IMG/VR virus record: IMGVR_UViG_3300046683_000084
Location: 1 to 29,181 of that record
Reading direction: 5' to 3' (one strand)
Length of the DNA: 29,181 nt
DNA from: a virus
The notes under the pieces were generated by a model. It saw nothing but the letters and a program-made list of their open reading frames with translations. It ran no database searches and was not told the DNA's origin. The position numbers and the translations under genes are program-made. Positions within the stretch are counted from its first letter, which is position 1. Each line of letters opens with the position of its first letter. Shown here piece by piece: positions 21,226 through 27,551 of the stretch.

Positions 21226-21771
21226 TCAGAACGGTGCTTCTTCTTCCTCTGTGACCTGCCCGTCGTCGAAGGCGCTGGAGGCGGAGCCCCTGCCGTCGAG
21301 GCGCGGCGTGTCGGTGCGGACGATCTGCACATGGTTGAGGCCAAAGCTCACGCCCTTGCGGCCCGAGTTCATCCACGCGAAGGGCGAGACGTTCATGCGC
21401 ACAAGCTGCCCGCCCCAGACCTCTTCCGGCAGGAGCACGTCCTGCCGCTGGGAATTGACGATGCCCGGGCGGCTCTTCGACCAAGGCGACAGGAAGGTGT
21501 GGCCGACTTCGAAGCCACCCCACTGACCGGCCTTCTCCCCGGCATCGCGGAAAGGCATCTTCAGTTCCTTGAGGTTGACGCGGTCGCCCCATTCCTCCTT
21601 GGCGGCGGAGATGCAGGCATCCTGCAGCGCCTTGTAGGCGGCATTCTGCTGCTGTGCCGGAGAGAAGATGATCACCGCCGAGTAGACCGGGTCGCCGCCA
21701 TCGGCGCGCGGCTTGGGCTGGAAGAGGGAGGGAAACGACAAGACGCCATAGGGGGTGTTGAGGCTGGACAT
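21226..21771 (-). CDS. ssDNA-binding protein, DUF2815 / Enc34 family
   Basis: I place the start at ATG 21771 (181 aa), with AAGGAACTGAA just before it. A longer frame to 21849 would translate the promoter. The sequence matches the DUF2815 (Enc34-type ssDNA-binding) family pattern: MSSLNTPYGVLSFPSLFQPK, a PVYSAVIIFSP strand, helix NAAYKALQDACISAAKEEWG, GHTFLSPWSKSRPGIVN, then VWGGQLVRMNVSPFAW, GVSFGLNHVQIVR. It ends in the acidic tail (DDGQVTEEEEAPF) usual for such proteins and probably involved in partner contacts. It should coat single-stranded DNA during replication and recombination. It is directly followed by a terminator and has its own promoter, consistent with a high expression level. 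Confidence 0.85.
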   Translation of the reverse strand: MSSLNTPYGVLSFPSLFQPKPRADGGDPVYSAVIIFSPAQQQNAAYKALQDACISAAKEEWGDRVNLKELKMPFRDAGEKAGQWGGFEVGHTFLSPWSKSRPGIVNSQRQDVLLPEEVWGGQLVRMNVSPFAWMNSGRKGVSFGLNHVQIVRTDTPRLDGRGSASSAFDDGQVTEEEEAPF

Positions 21772-21790
21772 TTCAGTTCCTTTCAGTTCC
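21771..21790 (-). repeat. 10-bp tandem direct repeat in the ssDNA-binding protein leader
   Basis: On the plus strand TTTCAGTTCC occurs twice in tandem (21771-21780 and 21781-21790), and a third partial copy, CAGTTCC, lies at 21800-21806. On the transcript this puts repeated GGAACTG units immediately before the start codon, spanning the ribosome binding site. Confidence 0.8.
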
Positions 21791-21817
21791 TGAGTTCTAC
21801 AGTTCCATTGTCCGATA

Positions 21818-21833
21818 CCAAGCATATGCTTGG
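21818..21833. promoter_or_regulatory. 16-bp perfect palindrome overlapping the -10 box (operator candidate)
   Basis: CCAAGCATATGCTTGG is a perfect 16-bp palindrome covering the -10 region of the promoter. Its position would let a dimeric repressor block transcription. The HTH-like protein encoded at 25024-25299 is the obvious candidate in this window, which is inference only. Confidence 0.6.
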
Positions 21834-21849
21834 CCTTGCATGATGTCAA
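21821..21849 (-). promoter_or_regulatory. Sigma70-like promoter for the ssDNA-binding protein gene
   Basis: On the minus strand, TTGACA (21849-21844) is followed after exactly 17 bases by TATGCT (21826-21821), a perfect -35 box and a 4/6 -10 box. It lies between the DUF2800 stop and the ssDNA-binding protein start, which leaves a leader of about 40 bases. Confidence 0.68.
21832..21845. promoter_or_regulatory. Early-promoter motif, copy 1
   Basis: GGCCTTGCATGATG on the plus strand lies between the -35 and -10 boxes. A copy differing at one base lies in the divergent promoter region at 25619-25632. It begins an inverted repeat, CCTTG with CAAGG (21834-21838 and 21847-21851). Confidence 0.6.
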
Positions 21850-22574
21850 GGGGCGTCGTCGAAAACAGCGGAGGCCTGTACGTTCTTGTGATTTTTGTAA
21901 GCATTACAATCACCTTTGCGGACGCACCAGCGGCACCAGTGACCATACTTCTCTGTGGTATCGCCTTGCTGGATGCGTTTCATCGCCGGTTGAAGCTCGA
22001 CGACGCCCCACCCCAGCAGGTCGTCGAATGACATCTTGCACGTCTGCGGGATCGGGTTTATACGCGGCTGGATGACTGTTAAGTTGACCTCGTCGAGCAG
22101 TGAATAATCTTGGGGCCAGAGCGTATGGACGGAAGCAAGGGCATAGATTTTGAATTGAGCGTGATCTGGATCGACCGGCACCCCTTTGCCGTACTTAAGG
22201 TCAACGATGTGGAGTACGCGGCCAGCCTTCGCCACACAATCCGTCGTGCCCCAGACAACGCCCCCGTCAAGACCAACCCGCTTCTCTATCCACACATCAA
22301 CGGTCTGGTCCTGAAGCTTCTGGATGAAGTCGACATATGGGTTCAGAGCCCTCAGCATGGGAAGGCCGACGATAAACTCAGAGCCCTCGACTGTGATCCT
22401 GTCGGGCGGGAATAACTCACCCGACAGGATCAATTCAGCAATGCTATGCGCCGCCGTGCCCTCCTTCGCATAGAGGGAGGATGGTCGCGTCCGGCCCTCC
22501 GCCAAGGTGACGGAGGCGGGGCAGTTCATCCACATCTCAGCAGACGAGGGTGAGGCGGCGGCGTGATCGGTCAA
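21846..22574 (-). CDS. DUF2800 Cas4/RecB-like nuclease with probable Fe-S cluster
   Basis: The start is TTG 22574, overlapping the upstream TGA and preceded by AAGGGGAAG. It gives the family N-terminus HAAASPSSAEMWMNCPAS (242 aa). Core nuclease motifs are GTTD (D112), VDLKYGKG (D125 and K127) and AQFKIYA (Q140, Y144), a PD-(D/E)XK arrangement. H43 lies in a Cas4-like helix. C18 together with C214, C217 and C223 (C-x2-C-x5-C) match the four-cysteine iron-sulfur layout of Cas4 and AddB. It probably resects DNA ends during phage recombination, together with the ssDNA-binding protein encoded next to it. Confidence 0.83.
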   Translation of the reverse strand: MTDHAAASPSSAEMWMNCPASVTLAEGRTRPSSLYAKEGTAAHSIAELILSGELFPPDRITVEGSEFIVGLPMLRALNPYVDFIQKLQDQTVDVWIEKRVGLDGGVVWGTTDCVAKAGRVLHIVDLKYGKGVPVDPDHAQFKIYALASVHTLWPQDYSLLDEVNLTVIQPRINPIPQTCKMSFDDLLGWGVVELQPAMKRIQQGDTTEKYGHWCRWCVRKGDCNAYKNHKNVQASAVFDDAP

Positions 22575-24573: not shown

Positions 24574-25058
24574 GGTCGTTTCTCCTTGTCGCGGAACCAG
24601 TCGAGCATCAAAAGGGCTTCCGCGCGGCCCTGATGTTTCTTGAGTTGGAGCCCCCAGACAGCGGGGTGCCGTTGAATAGCCAGAGCCCTCCCGGCCTCCT
24701 TGTCCTTGCCGATCAGGCTGAAATGCTTCTTCCACGTCTGTGGCGTGACATAGTAAATCGGGATCTCCAGCGCGGCCAGCACGCCGTAGATGGCTCCGCA
24801 GGCGAAGCCGAATTTGAAAGTGGAGGCGACACCCTGCTTGGGCATCGCCCCCACGCGCTCGACCACCGCGACCCTGACGCGCGCGGCGCGCAGCGTCCTC
24901 CCCAGCGTAGCGGCGTCAAGCTGACCATTGGCGACCGGCAGGTCAGCCACTGTAATGAGATCGTCGCAGTCCAGCGCCATCGCGCCGGAGACCGCGCCCG
25001 GGTCGATGGCGACGACGGCGGGGTCAGGCTTGCGGATCAGGAGTTCGACGCTTGACAA
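24570..25058 (-). CDS. RuvC-like Holliday junction resolvase-type nuclease
   Basis: The best start is TTG 25058, seven bases after AAGGAG. The product is 162 residues with an RNase H/RuvC-like fold: VVAIDPGAVSGAMAL (D19), VAVVERVGAMPKQG (E67), a FACGAIYGVLAALE helix, then VTPQTWKK and KHQGRAEALLMLDWF (E147). The two first acids and the last acidic residue match the catalytic carboxylates of RuvC-type enzymes. It should cleave branched DNA made by recombination or replication, before packaging. It overlaps the HTH gene upstream by 35 bases and the helicase downstream (ATGA). Confidence 0.82.
   Translation of the reverse strand: MSSVELLIRKPDPAVVAIDPGAVSGAMALDCDDLITVADLPVANGQLDAATLGRTLRAARVRVAVVERVGAMPKQGVASTFKFGFACGAIYGVLAALEIPIYYVTPQTWKKHFSLIGKDKEAGRALAIQRHPAVWGLQLKKHQGRAEALLMLDWFRDKEKRP
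24574..24585 (-). promoter_or_regulatory. Shared early-gene leader GGAGAAACGACC (helicase)
   Basis: GGAGAAACGACC on the minus strand directly abuts ATG 24573. The GGAG part is the ribosome binding site and fixes the helicase start. The AAACGACC part is conserved beyond what a binding site needs. Confidence 0.75.
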
Positions 25059-25299
25059 TCTTTCTCTCCTTGAGGTCGTCGATGGAGCCGATCACCCGTC
25101 CCTCAAGCGCCAGAGCGATGACCGCAGGCAACCAAGAGGAGGGGATCGAATTGCGGTGGGCCCACGCCGTGACGGTGCTTTCCGGCAGGAGCGGGTAGCC
25201 CCGCTGCTGGAGCAGGGAGGCCACTTGGTTGTATGATCCGAGGCTCTGGATCAGGTGCCGGAACCTCCACTTGGGGGCACTGTAGTGTTGTGACTTCAT
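25024..25299 (-). CDS. Putative helix-turn-helix regulator (91 aa)
   Basis: A 91-residue protein whose residues 12-62 have an HTH-like layout: HLIQSLGSYNQVASLLQQRG, then LPESTVTAWAHRNSIPSSWLPAV. The AVASLL/STVTAWxxRxSIP pattern is typical of phage Cro/YdaS-type DNA-binding proteins, with the second stretch as recognition helix. The tail is basic (KERKIVKRRTP). ATG 25299 overlaps the upstream stop and has GGAGAACCCGGA before it. It is the second gene of the minus-strand operon and the natural candidate to bind the palindrome and motif at the two early promoters. Confidence 0.72.
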   Translation of the reverse strand: MKSQHYSAPKWRFRHLIQSLGSYNQVASLLQQRGYPLLPESTVTAWAHRNSIPSSWLPAVIALALEGRVIGSIDDLKERKIVKRRTPDPQA

Positions 25300-25577
25300 T
25301 CCGGGTTCTCCTTCTTCGCGAGCTTGAGCGAGCGCACGTCGGTCTTCTTCAGGAACGGCGCGATGACATCCTCGCCAAAGGCGGCGATCAGCGATGGCTT
25401 GTCGACGCTCTCGCGGCTGGACGACTGGATGTAGGCGCGATACTGCTTGCCGTCGCGGTCCGCCTCAGAGGCGTTCATCAGCGCCATGCGCAGGGTGTTC
25501 TCGCGGTCCTCGAGGATCTTGATCTCCTCGCGAACGGCGGCGAGTTCGTCGGCAGGGTGAATGTTGAAAAGGGTCAC
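25296..25577 (-). CDS. First gene of the early minus-strand operon (93 aa, unknown)
   Basis: The start is GTG 25577, set by the GGAGAAACGACC leader ending one base before it. A longer open frame upstream (to 26252) runs through the promoter and under polA and is a shadow. The product is 93 residues: an amphipathic coiled-coil helix (ADELAAVREEIKILEDRENTL, broken at 12-32), a central KQYRAYIQSSSRESVD, and a C-terminal helix FGEDVIAPFLKKTDVRSLKL. No family name is recognised. As the promoter-proximal gene it is probably expressed first, which is often the place for host-takeover or regulatory proteins. Confidence 0.72.
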   Translation of the reverse strand: MTLFNIHPADELAAVREEIKILEDRENTLRMALMNASEADRDGKQYRAYIQSSSRESVDKPSLIAAFGEDVIAPFLKKTDVRSLKLAKKENPE

Positions 25578-25589
25578 GGTCGTTTCTCC
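25578..25589 (-). promoter_or_regulatory. Shared early-gene leader GGAGAAACGACC (93-aa gene)
   Basis: An identical 12-mer directly abuts GTG 25577 and is the main reason for choosing that non-ATG start. Confidence 0.75.
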
Positions 25590-25612: not shown

Positions 25613-25641
25613 TATATAGGCCTTGCAAGATGAAAGCGCAA
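25613..25641 (-). promoter_or_regulatory. Minus-strand early promoter candidate
   Basis: On the minus strand TTGCGC (25641-25636) is followed after 17 bases by TATATA (25618-25613). The -35 box is weak (3/6) and the -10 box is fair (4/6). It would drive the 25577-to-20496 operon with a leader of about 30 bases. It overlaps the shared motif at 25619-25632. Confidence 0.5.
25619..25632. promoter_or_regulatory. Early-promoter motif, copy 2
   Basis: GGCCTTGCAAGATG, differing at one base from the copy at 21832-21845. Its distance to the -10 box differs between the two promoters, which points to a protein-binding operator rather than a core promoter element. Confidence 0.58.
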
Positions 25642-25651
25642 GGGCTATTTA
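25623..25651 (+). promoter_or_regulatory. Plus-strand promoter candidate for polA
   Basis: TTGCAA (25623-25628), 17 bases, then TATTTA (25646-25651), in an unusually AT-rich stretch upstream of the DNA polymerase. Match to consensus is moderate (4/6 and 3/6). It overlaps the divergent minus-strand promoter and an inverted repeat, CCTTGC (25621-25626) with GCAAGG (25638-25643). Confidence 0.42.
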
Positions 25652-25666
25652 AAAGGGACGCAAAAA

Positions 25667-25678
25667 GGAGAAACGACC
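25667..25678 (+). promoter_or_regulatory. Shared early-gene leader GGAGAAACGACC (polA)
   Basis: The identical 12-mer on the plus strand, one base before ATG 25680. It is preceded by an A-rich stretch that should keep the site unstructured. Confidence 0.75.
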
Positions 25679-25679
25679 C

Positions 25680-27551
25680 ATGACAGCCAACAGGGTGCTG
25701 CATCTGGATTTTGAGACGTTTTCTGACGCCGACATAAAGAAGGTCGGGCTCGAGAATTACGTGCGCTCGACCGAGTTCGCGATAACCGTGGTGGCGTGGG
25801 CCTTTGACGACGGGGCGGTGAAGTCCACGGTGTGGCCAAATTTTTGTCTTCCCGAGAGCATACGCGCGCACGTAAAGGCCGGGGGCGAGATCAGGGCGCA
25901 CAACGCCCTGTTCGAATGGACCATCTTGAGGGACTACTACAATGTCGATGTCAGCCCCGAGCAGATGGTCTGCACCATGCAGAAGGCTCTGGCCTATGGC
26001 CTGCCGGGGGGCCTGCTGAAGGCGGGCGTGGCACTCAAGGCACCAATCATAAAAGACGAGAGCAAGCGGCGGCTGATGCTGCAGATGTCGCGACCCCGGA
26101 AAGGGTTTCCGCCGTGGCACCAGACGGACCCCGGGAAGCTGGCCGAGCTTGCCGAGTACTGCCGGGGCGACGTGGAGGCGGAGTGGTGCCTCGACAAGCT
26201 CGTGCCTGACCTGCACCCGTTCGAGCAGCGGCTGGCGTGGCTGGACATGCATATCAACCGGGAGGGGATACTGATCGAACGGCAGTCAGTGATGGCGCTG
26301 GATCGCGTGGCGAGGTGGGAATTGATGGCCATCGATGCCGAGTGCGGGACGCTGACCGAGGGCGACGTGACGAGGCCCGGATCGCAGGTGGACAGGCTTA
26401 TGTCTTGGTTGCGGGGAAAGAATTTCGAACTCCCGGATGTCAGCAGGGAGACCGTCACCAGAGCCCTGACCGAGGAGCCCCCGGCGGATGTCCGGCGGGT
26501 GCTGGAGCTTAGGCAGATGGCGGCTAAGTCGTCAGTCGCGAAGCTTGAGCGGATGCTGGACGTGGCTTCGACGAACGACGGCAGGGCCCGCAACCTGCTT
26601 CAGTTTTATGGGGCGGGCCGGACGGGGCGCTGGGCGGGGAGGCTGATCCAGCCGCAGAACCTGCCGAGGACACCCAAGGGGTTCCGGCCCGAGGCGGTGA
26701 TCAATGCAGCCTGCATCGACCTCGCGGCTCCGGGGCTCCTGTGGGGAGACGCGATGGACGCGATCAGCAAGTGCCTGAGATCCTGTTTCATCGCCAAGCA
26801 GGGGTGCGTGCTGGTGTCGGTGGACCTGTCGCAGATCGAGGCGCGGGTGCTGGCGTGGCTGGCGGGCCAGCAGGACATCGTGCAGGCCTTCCGGCAGGGG
26901 CAGGATGTCTACACCATGCAGGCGTACAAGGTGGGGTCGCGCGACCGGCAGTTGGGCAAGGTTCTGACGCTGGCGTGTGGCTTTGGCATGGGGGCGCGAA
27001 AGTTCTGGGAGACCGCTTGCGGGGCTCCATACAACCTTGTCCTGACATTTGATGAGGCCGTCTATCACCTCGCGTCGTGGCGGCGCGCGAACCCCGACAT
27101 CATAGGGTACTGGAAGACAGTCGAGGATGCAGTGCGATTGTCTATTAGCAATGTCGACAAGATAGTGAACCTTACGGGAACGATGGCGGTACGAACTAGG
27201 CACGGTGTAACGCAGGTAAGAAAACCCAACGGTGTCAAGCTCACTTATCACAATATGCGGCTGGAAAACGGCGGGCTGGTCTTTGATGGCGTCAATGGCG
27301 TGACCAAGCAGTGGGGCACCGAGCGGACGTATGGCGGGCGACTGGTCGAAAATATCGTGCAGTCGGTGGCGCGCGACGTGATGGCCGAGGGCATGCTGTC
27401 CAGCAGCCACCAGCCGGTGATGACTGTCCACGATGAAATCATCTGGGAGGTGCCGGGGGACGATGCGGTGCTGGCGACGTTCAGTCCGCCGTGGGCGTCG
27501 GGCCTGCCGGTGGCGTCGGAGACGACGGTGGGGAGAAGGTACGCCAAATGA
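25680..27551 (+). CDS. polA: Family A DNA polymerase with 3'-5' exonuclease domain
   Basis: A 623-residue replicative polymerase. The N-terminal proofreading domain has Exo I LDFETFS (D10, E12), Exo II AHNALFEW (N75, with E79 where Asp is usual) and Exo III YCRGDVEAEW (D164). The polymerase domain has motif A VSVDLSQIEARVLAWLAG (D382), motif B RDRQLGKVLTLACGFGMG (K427) and motif C TVHDEIIWEVP (H584, D585, E586). No 5'-3' exonuclease domain is present, as usual for phage enzymes. By my alignment the O-helix residues equivalent to E. coli Phe762 and Tyr766 are L431 and F435. It has its own leader and probably its own promoter, and is followed by the primase-helicase gene, giving the core replisome. 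Confidence 0.93.
   Translation: MTANRVLHLDFETFSDADIKKVGLENYVRSTEFAITVVAWAFDDGAVKSTVWPNFCLPESIRAHVKAGGEIRAHNALFEWTILRDYYNVDVSPEQMVCTMQKALAYGLPGGLLKAGVALKAPIIKDESKRRLMLQMSRPRKGFPPWHQTDPGKLAELAEYCRGDVEAEWCLDKLVPDLHPFEQRLAWLDMHINREGILIERQSVMALDRVARWELMAIDAECGTLTEGDVTRPGSQVDRLMSWLRGKNFELPDVSRETVTRALTEEPPADVRRVLELRQMAAKSSVAKLERMLDVASTNDGRARNLLQFYGAGRTGRWAGRLIQPQNLPRTPKGFRPEAVINAACIDLAAPGLLWGDAMDAISKCLRSCFIAKQGCVLVSVDLSQIEARVLAWLAGQQDIVQAFRQGQDVYTMQAYKVGSRDRQLGKVLTLACGFGMGARKFWETACGAPYNLVLTFDEAVYHLASWRRANPDIIGYWKTVEDAVRLSISNVDKIVNLTGTMAVRTRHGVTQVRKPNGVKLTYHNMRLENGGLVFDGVNGVTKQWGTERTYGGRLVENIVQSVARDVMAEGMLSSSHQPVMTVHDEIIWEVPGDDAVLATFSPPWASGLPVASETTVGRRYAK

Follow-up and report, generated by a model that had tools for sequence, protein, structure and literature searches.

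Does a 14-bp sequence that recurs at two promoter regions of one phage mark the operator of a single regulator, or do two promoters simply look alike? The question arises from a sequence-only reading of an entire IMG/VR virus record of 29,181 bp (the window, i.e. the whole stretch of DNA analysed here), which proposed that near-identical copies of the sequence form an operator for one regulator of the divergent early promoters and of the gene for a ssDNA-binding protein (SSB), with a nearby HTH-like protein as the likely binder.

Gene order of the window and its relatives

In the ORF list of the window, long rightward ORFs extend to about 20.5 kb, a leftward gene block spans 25.6 to about 20.5 kb, and from 25.68 kb the genes again run rightward, with a family A DNA polymerase (25680–27551, plus strand) followed by a primase-like gene that is truncated at the end of the record. 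Counted from the divergent point, the leftward block encodes x94, a conserved small protein (25296–25577, minus strand), the 91-residue HTH protein (25024–25299, minus strand), a RuvC-like resolvase, an SNF2 helicase, two small proteins without a family match, a DUF2800 PD-(D/E)XK exonuclease-like protein (21846–22574, minus strand) and the Enc34/gp2.5-like SSB (21226–21771, minus strand). Close relatives, whose DNA polymerases are 48–62% identical to that of the window, have the same gene block wherever their available sequence extends that far. At the DNA level the window gives weak matches to six phage records, and L003/L009 represents a near-identical fragment (6756 bp, 5 mismatches).

The GTG start of x94 is inferred from a 12-base leader, GGAGAAACGACC, which is present in identical form at 24574–24585, 25578–25589 and 25667–25678; it adjoins the starts of the SNF2 and x94 genes and lies one base further from that of the DNA polymerase, and three such matches were reached in 0 of 100 shuffles. 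The predicted structure of x94 (pLDDT 82.8, pTM 0.52) combines a long helix with two strands and several short helices. In bacterial genomes x94 has two partial matches of 30–31 residues, in the MAG contigs L208 and L209 (Loktanella, Rhodobacteraceae), which offer a weak hint at a host group.

A predicted interleaved pair of divergent promoters

The region between x94 and the DNA polymerase gene can be read as two sigma70-type promoters that occupy almost the same DNA. The rightward promoter (25623–25651, plus strand), read from the sequence and aligned with 10 relatives, would serve the DNA polymerase gene and consists of a -35 TTGCAA (25623–25628), a 17-bp spacer and a -10 TATTTA (25646–25651); the leftward promoter (25613–25641, minus strand), directed toward the x94/HTH operon, consists of a -35 TTGCGC (25641–25636), a 17-bp spacer and a -10 TATATA (25618–25613). 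Together they make up a symmetric element of 39 bp (25613–25651) in the order -10, 4 bp, -35, 7 bp, -35, 4 bp, -10, within which each -35 sits in the spacer of the opposite promoter. Copy A of the motif (GGCCTTGCAAGATG, 25619–25632, plus strand) takes in the 4-bp gap beside the leftward -10, then the entire rightward -35, and ends 4 bases into the central 7 bp. The earlier placement of the copies in promoter-like sequence is borne out, with the amendment that this copy coincides with a pair of overlapping promoters, its TTGCAA being the rightward -35 itself. Correctly described, too, were the CCTTG...CAAGG arms and the unequal spacing of the two copies from the leftward -10 (0 and 5 bp); at 25619, the inverted repeat is accounted for by the contexts of two opposed -35 hexamers, which counts against the operator reading.

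A consensus scan did not flag the divergent pair (2 promoter-like sites in 9.7 kb against 1.9 expected; the SSB promoter was flagged), and the case for it therefore relies on relatives. For the layout scan the best promoter was picked independently on each strand, using rough sigma70 weights, in 24 distinct intergenic regions including that of the window, identical ones having been dropped; L004/L025 and L014/L040/L029 are close kin within this set. The -35 hexamers overlapped in 21 of the 24 regions, with TTG...CAA spans of 19 bp in nine, 18 in one, 7 in ten and 6 in one. The misses were L225, where the promoters do not overlap, L228, and the plus strand of the window, for which the scan chose a site different from the 25623–25651 promoter; in L228 and the window the overlap is seen by eye only, with spans of 10 and 19 bp. 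Across nine aligned elements the retained columns fall mostly within the hexamers. On these sequence comparisons the conserved interleaved layout is well supported. In a more distant clade (L015, L017–L024 and L069) both -35 hexamers of the divergent pair overlap within a single TTGTCAA-like heptamer, the span being 7 in 10 of 10 distinct regions.

The predicted SSB promoter and the SSB leader

The predicted SSB promoter (21821–21849, minus strand) matches the consensus at 10 of 12 positions, with a -35 TTGACA (21849–21844), a 17-bp spacer and a -10 TATGCT (21826–21821). Its -35 begins over the DUF2800 stop codon (21846–21848), so that the 3' end of that gene includes part of the hexamer, and copy B of the motif (GGCCTTGCATGATG, 21832–21845, plus strand) abuts the stop codon and lies in the spacer and at the edge of the -35. 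By eye, relatives (e.g. L010, L011, L060, L061 and L014) also show a -35/-10 pair ahead of SSB, there without the 14-mer. The window has in addition a perfect 16-bp palindrome, CCAAGCATATGCTTGG (21818–21833), which covers the SSB -10, overlaps copy B by 2 bp and is a candidate for an alternative or additional operator.

The leader of the SSB gene contains four copies of GAACT[GC] spaced by 8–10 nt (21774–21806 of the window). Leaders of L060, L061 and L011 have 4, 5 and 3 copies with 9–10 nt spacing, and the other 30 of 34 distinct SSB leaders have 0–2; the repeats are a possible site for SSB autoregulation. In L205 a tRNA-Asn (gtt) gene (2093–2167) separates the SSB gene from its promoter, and in the distant clade many SSB promoters show, by eye, an inverted AGGG...CCCT pair.

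Rarity and conservation of the 14-bp motif

The two copies of the motif, GGCCTTGCAWGATG, differ by one base, as had been reported, and the proposed scan of the whole 29,181-bp record with one mismatch returned these two sites and no further copy on either strand; a control scan with the reversed pattern gave 0 matches. Allowing three mismatches, 11 matches were found against 5.26 expected, a number reached by 2 of 100 shuffles, and the nine besides copies A and B all have 3 mismatches. The motif falls short of a clean palindrome. Near-repeats of this quality are common in the record, where 1037 pairs of 14-mers differ by no more than one base, versus 327–359 in three shuffles. Confined to these two promoter regions the 13/14 match is rare: when the intergenic stretches concerned, of 75 and 99 bp, were shuffled by dinucleotides, 1 of 1500 shuffles equalled it, and of 2411 windows placed along the record in 12-base steps none matched the 25.6-kb core as closely as the 21.8-kb promoter. 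Exact GGCCTTGCAAGATG also occurs in at least 119 stretches of viral contigs, matches that were set aside because a collection that large should contain chance occurrences of a 14-mer.

Conservation in relatives, by which the sequence-only reading had asked to be judged, is absent. Ten relatives match 6–9 of the 14 bases in homologous columns, and apart from L003/L009, which is the same phage, the best match anywhere in the regions compared, a set that left out the divergent regions of L225, L228 and L234, is at most 11/14. One operator sequence common to the whole clade was rejected on the grounds that these columns are not conserved.

Sharing between promoters within and across phages

A drifting regulator that reads both promoters should leave each phage sharing its own sequence between them, and this expectation can be put to a comparison in which every divergent-promoter core is matched with the SSB core of the same phage and with those of the others. 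The set comprised eight close-clade phages (the window, L006, L013, L014, L005, L028, L226 and L225); L004/L025, whose available sequence does not include an SSB region, were left out. The score was the best ungapped local match, evaluated by exact permutation, between cores that were placed by hand; the resemblance in L006 and L014 had been seen by eye before testing. Own pairs scored higher than other pairs with a mismatch penalty of -1 (10.38 versus 7.38, exact p 7e-5) and of -2 (9.00 versus 6.46, p 1e-4). When the window, which had prompted the comparison, was left out, p was 6e-4 and 8e-4; each leave-one-out p was at most 8e-4; removal of the window together with one further phage gave 0.004–0.006; and an earlier run that included the kin L014, L040 and L029, of which the final set retains L014 only, gave 0.0012. 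Purely positional regions, which for L013 and L005 miss a promoter, gave p ≤0.0078 with all eight phages and 0.0002–0.052 without the window. Masking of the promoter hexamers weakened the signal to p 0.026–0.053 (all eight) and 0.009–0.023 (without the window), a range that tempers the operator reading.

Controls at other genes showed no excess, either for the divergent-promoter core against the regions upstream of DUF2800, SNF2, RuvC and HTH (p 0.36–0.997) or for the SSB core against those upstream of DUF2800, SNF2, RuvC, HTH and x94 (p 0.07–0.65), and random windows scored slightly higher in own than in other genomes (6.57 versus 6.36; 5.96 versus 5.78). Against windows of each phage's own genome, Fisher's combined p without the phage of the window was 6e-6 or 2e-7; this background test disregards promoter likeness, for which the cross-phage test controls. 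Taken singly against that background, L013 (p 0.10–0.15), L005 (0.05–0.14) and L226 (0.21 or 0.003, depending on the mismatch penalty) are less distinct, and L013 and L005 have only 7–8 bases common to both promoters. The shared segment is TTGAAGAGWTCAA in L006 and TTCAAGWGTTCAA in L014. Its offset from the -35, read by hand, differs between one promoter and the other in the window, L014, L226 and L028, and is equal in L006 and L005; in L006 it begins at the -35 of both promoters and is, at SSB, also DUF2800 coding sequence.

The nine phages of the distant clade gave no own-versus-other signal in two analyses (p 0.52–0.62 and 0.49–0.79) and a genome-background p of 0.058. In this clade, 6/9 and 7/9 phages carry 8-mers such as ACAGGGGT and GGTTGACA, respectively, at one mismatch or fewer in each of their two cores, against maxima of 2–4 in 60 random draws, a result that the -35 confounds. 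Since the HTH recognition helix is far less variable in this clade, a common operator, which would produce no own-versus-other difference, may account post hoc for the null result.

The HTH protein as candidate regulator

The HTH gene is the second of the leftward operon and keeps this place in the relatives whose available sequence covers it. Its product matches carph-isopro (NF046037) with 43.3 bits, above the cut-off of 38, as do 29 of 31 homologues at E 0.001; the name carph-isopro was not found in the literature searched. The AlphaFold2 model predicts a confident HTH (pLDDT 88.9), with structural neighbours up to Z 5.7 that are mixed: a POU domain heads the list, and the others include an XRE antitoxin, C protein, Stl, a lambda repressor mutant and further POU domains. 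We obtained no Foldseek match at E 0.001, no Pfam hit and a lone match to solved structures by sequence (E 0.62); a tblastn search of 50,697 phage records at E 0.01 gave nothing for either the HTH or the 94-residue protein. Position and predicted fold make the protein a plausible binder of the motif. In the HTH helix, the window, L060 and L061 have W-A, and L004, L005, L006, L013, L014, L027, L029 and L226 have W-R; the three with W-A also have CATGCA in the SSB spacer, a pattern that fits a joint change of regulator and operator, with kinship as a confounder.

Discussion

The layout, its conservation and the excess of sharing within phages are properties of the sequences themselves; from them we infer promoter activity, mutual exclusion, repression and the identity of the binder. 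The replication module would be driven by the interleaved divergent promoters (25613–25651) and by the separate leftward SSB promoter (21821–21849). The divergent promoters overlap nearly fully, so RNA polymerase would be expected to occupy only one at a time. We take the 14-bp sequence found at 25619 and 21832 to be, most likely, a private operator of this phage, bound by one phage regulator that is most likely the HTH protein. Bound at 25619, the regulator would sit on the rightward -35 together with the leftward spacer, and so may block transcription either way; its site at 21832 would place it over the SSB spacer. The predicted outcome is that the replication operons and the regulator's own synthesis are jointly shut down or timed. 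That relatives have the same promoter layout with a different shared sequence is what co-change of regulator and operator would produce. We put the probability of this explanation as a whole at about 0.5; its narrower part, a probable private operator seated on the conserved divergent promoter, is moderately supported. The shared operator first proposed is partly supported: the within-phage excess in the close clade, present also without the window and absent at four to five other genes, speaks for it, and the lack of conservation of the 14-mer and the null result in the distant clade count against it.

The match may instead be a chance likeness of two sigma70 promoters, with the interleaved divergent promoter as the sole real feature at 25619. 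We regard this as a serious if doubtful explanation. It would account for a motif that relatives do not conserve and whose retained columns are mostly hexamers, for arms at 25619 that contain the TTG ends of both -35s, for 1037 equally good 14-mer pairs in the record and for the weakening of the signal upon masking. It fits poorly with the 1 in 1500 shuffles that match for this pair of regions, with the seven further phages in which, as a set, own exceeds other (p 6e-4 to 8e-4) and controls at other genes are negative, and with offsets from the -35 that, by hand, differ between the promoters of the window, L014, L226 and L028.

That the shared element reflects the host, as the site of a host regulator or as a promoter preference common to two promoters serving the same host, is improbable in our judgement. 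Such an origin also predicts sharing within a phage without conservation across phages, yet other upstream regions of the same phages, though possibly promoterless, show no own-versus-other excess, the shared segment of the window takes in spacer sequence at differing offsets, and the HTH gene is retained in the operon. Still less probable is that CCAAGCATATGCTTGG is the real SSB operator and the 14-mer incidental. The palindrome is perfect, lies over the -10 and is the sole copy within 3 mismatches, but the divergent promoter has no copy of it, no equally long perfect palindrome was noticed by eye in the SSB promoters of relatives, and the sharing between promoters would be left unexplained.

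The proposed phage-private operator has partial counterparts. In the lambda-type PRM/PR region a small HTH gene (CI/Cro) stands beside divergent early promoters that an operator overlaps. The window likewise has a small HTH gene adjoining divergent early promoters and an overlapping candidate operator, but shows no visible array of several operators and would have replication genes as targets on both sides. For overlapping divergent promoters with a flanking regulator there is a precedent in pLS20, with its Pr/Pc pair and the regulator RcoLS20, where evidence of DNA looping is reported and the -35 and -10 boxes are proposed to coincide on opposite strands (PMC4207663). Both systems have one promoter serving the regulator gene and an operator over the pair, regulator and operator being candidates in the window; unlike Pr/Pc as described there, the window has each predicted -35 in the opposite spacer (PMC4207663). 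Bidirectional promoters with a shared -10, described with start sites 7–25 bp apart (PMC12825309, PMC10268837), similarly set two polymerase orientations in competition for one DNA stretch. The window does not belong to this E. coli type, its separate -10 boxes (25613–25618 and 25646–25651) being the outer ends of the 39-bp element, with predicted starts some 50 bp from each other. Repressors and stoperators of mycobacteriophages resemble the present case in the asymmetric sites (here putative) of a phage regulator and in specificities that evolve among relatives (PMC6550527, PMC9283540); stoperators are numerous and genome-wide, whereas the window has just two copies, one per promoter.

A bolder and rather unlikely extension is that this uncultivated clade keeps the interleaved layout while each phage has a private operator, repeated at SSB and read by a fast-diverging carph-isopro regulator, in which case turnover of specificity may create incompatibility at the level of replication between related phages, temperate or not. 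If the phage-private operator is real, carph-isopro proteins would gain a candidate function and target, and a swap of the HTH protein between relatives would be predicted to swap operator specificity. The conserved interleaved promoter would itself offer a compact natural case of two polymerases competing over one stretch of DNA.
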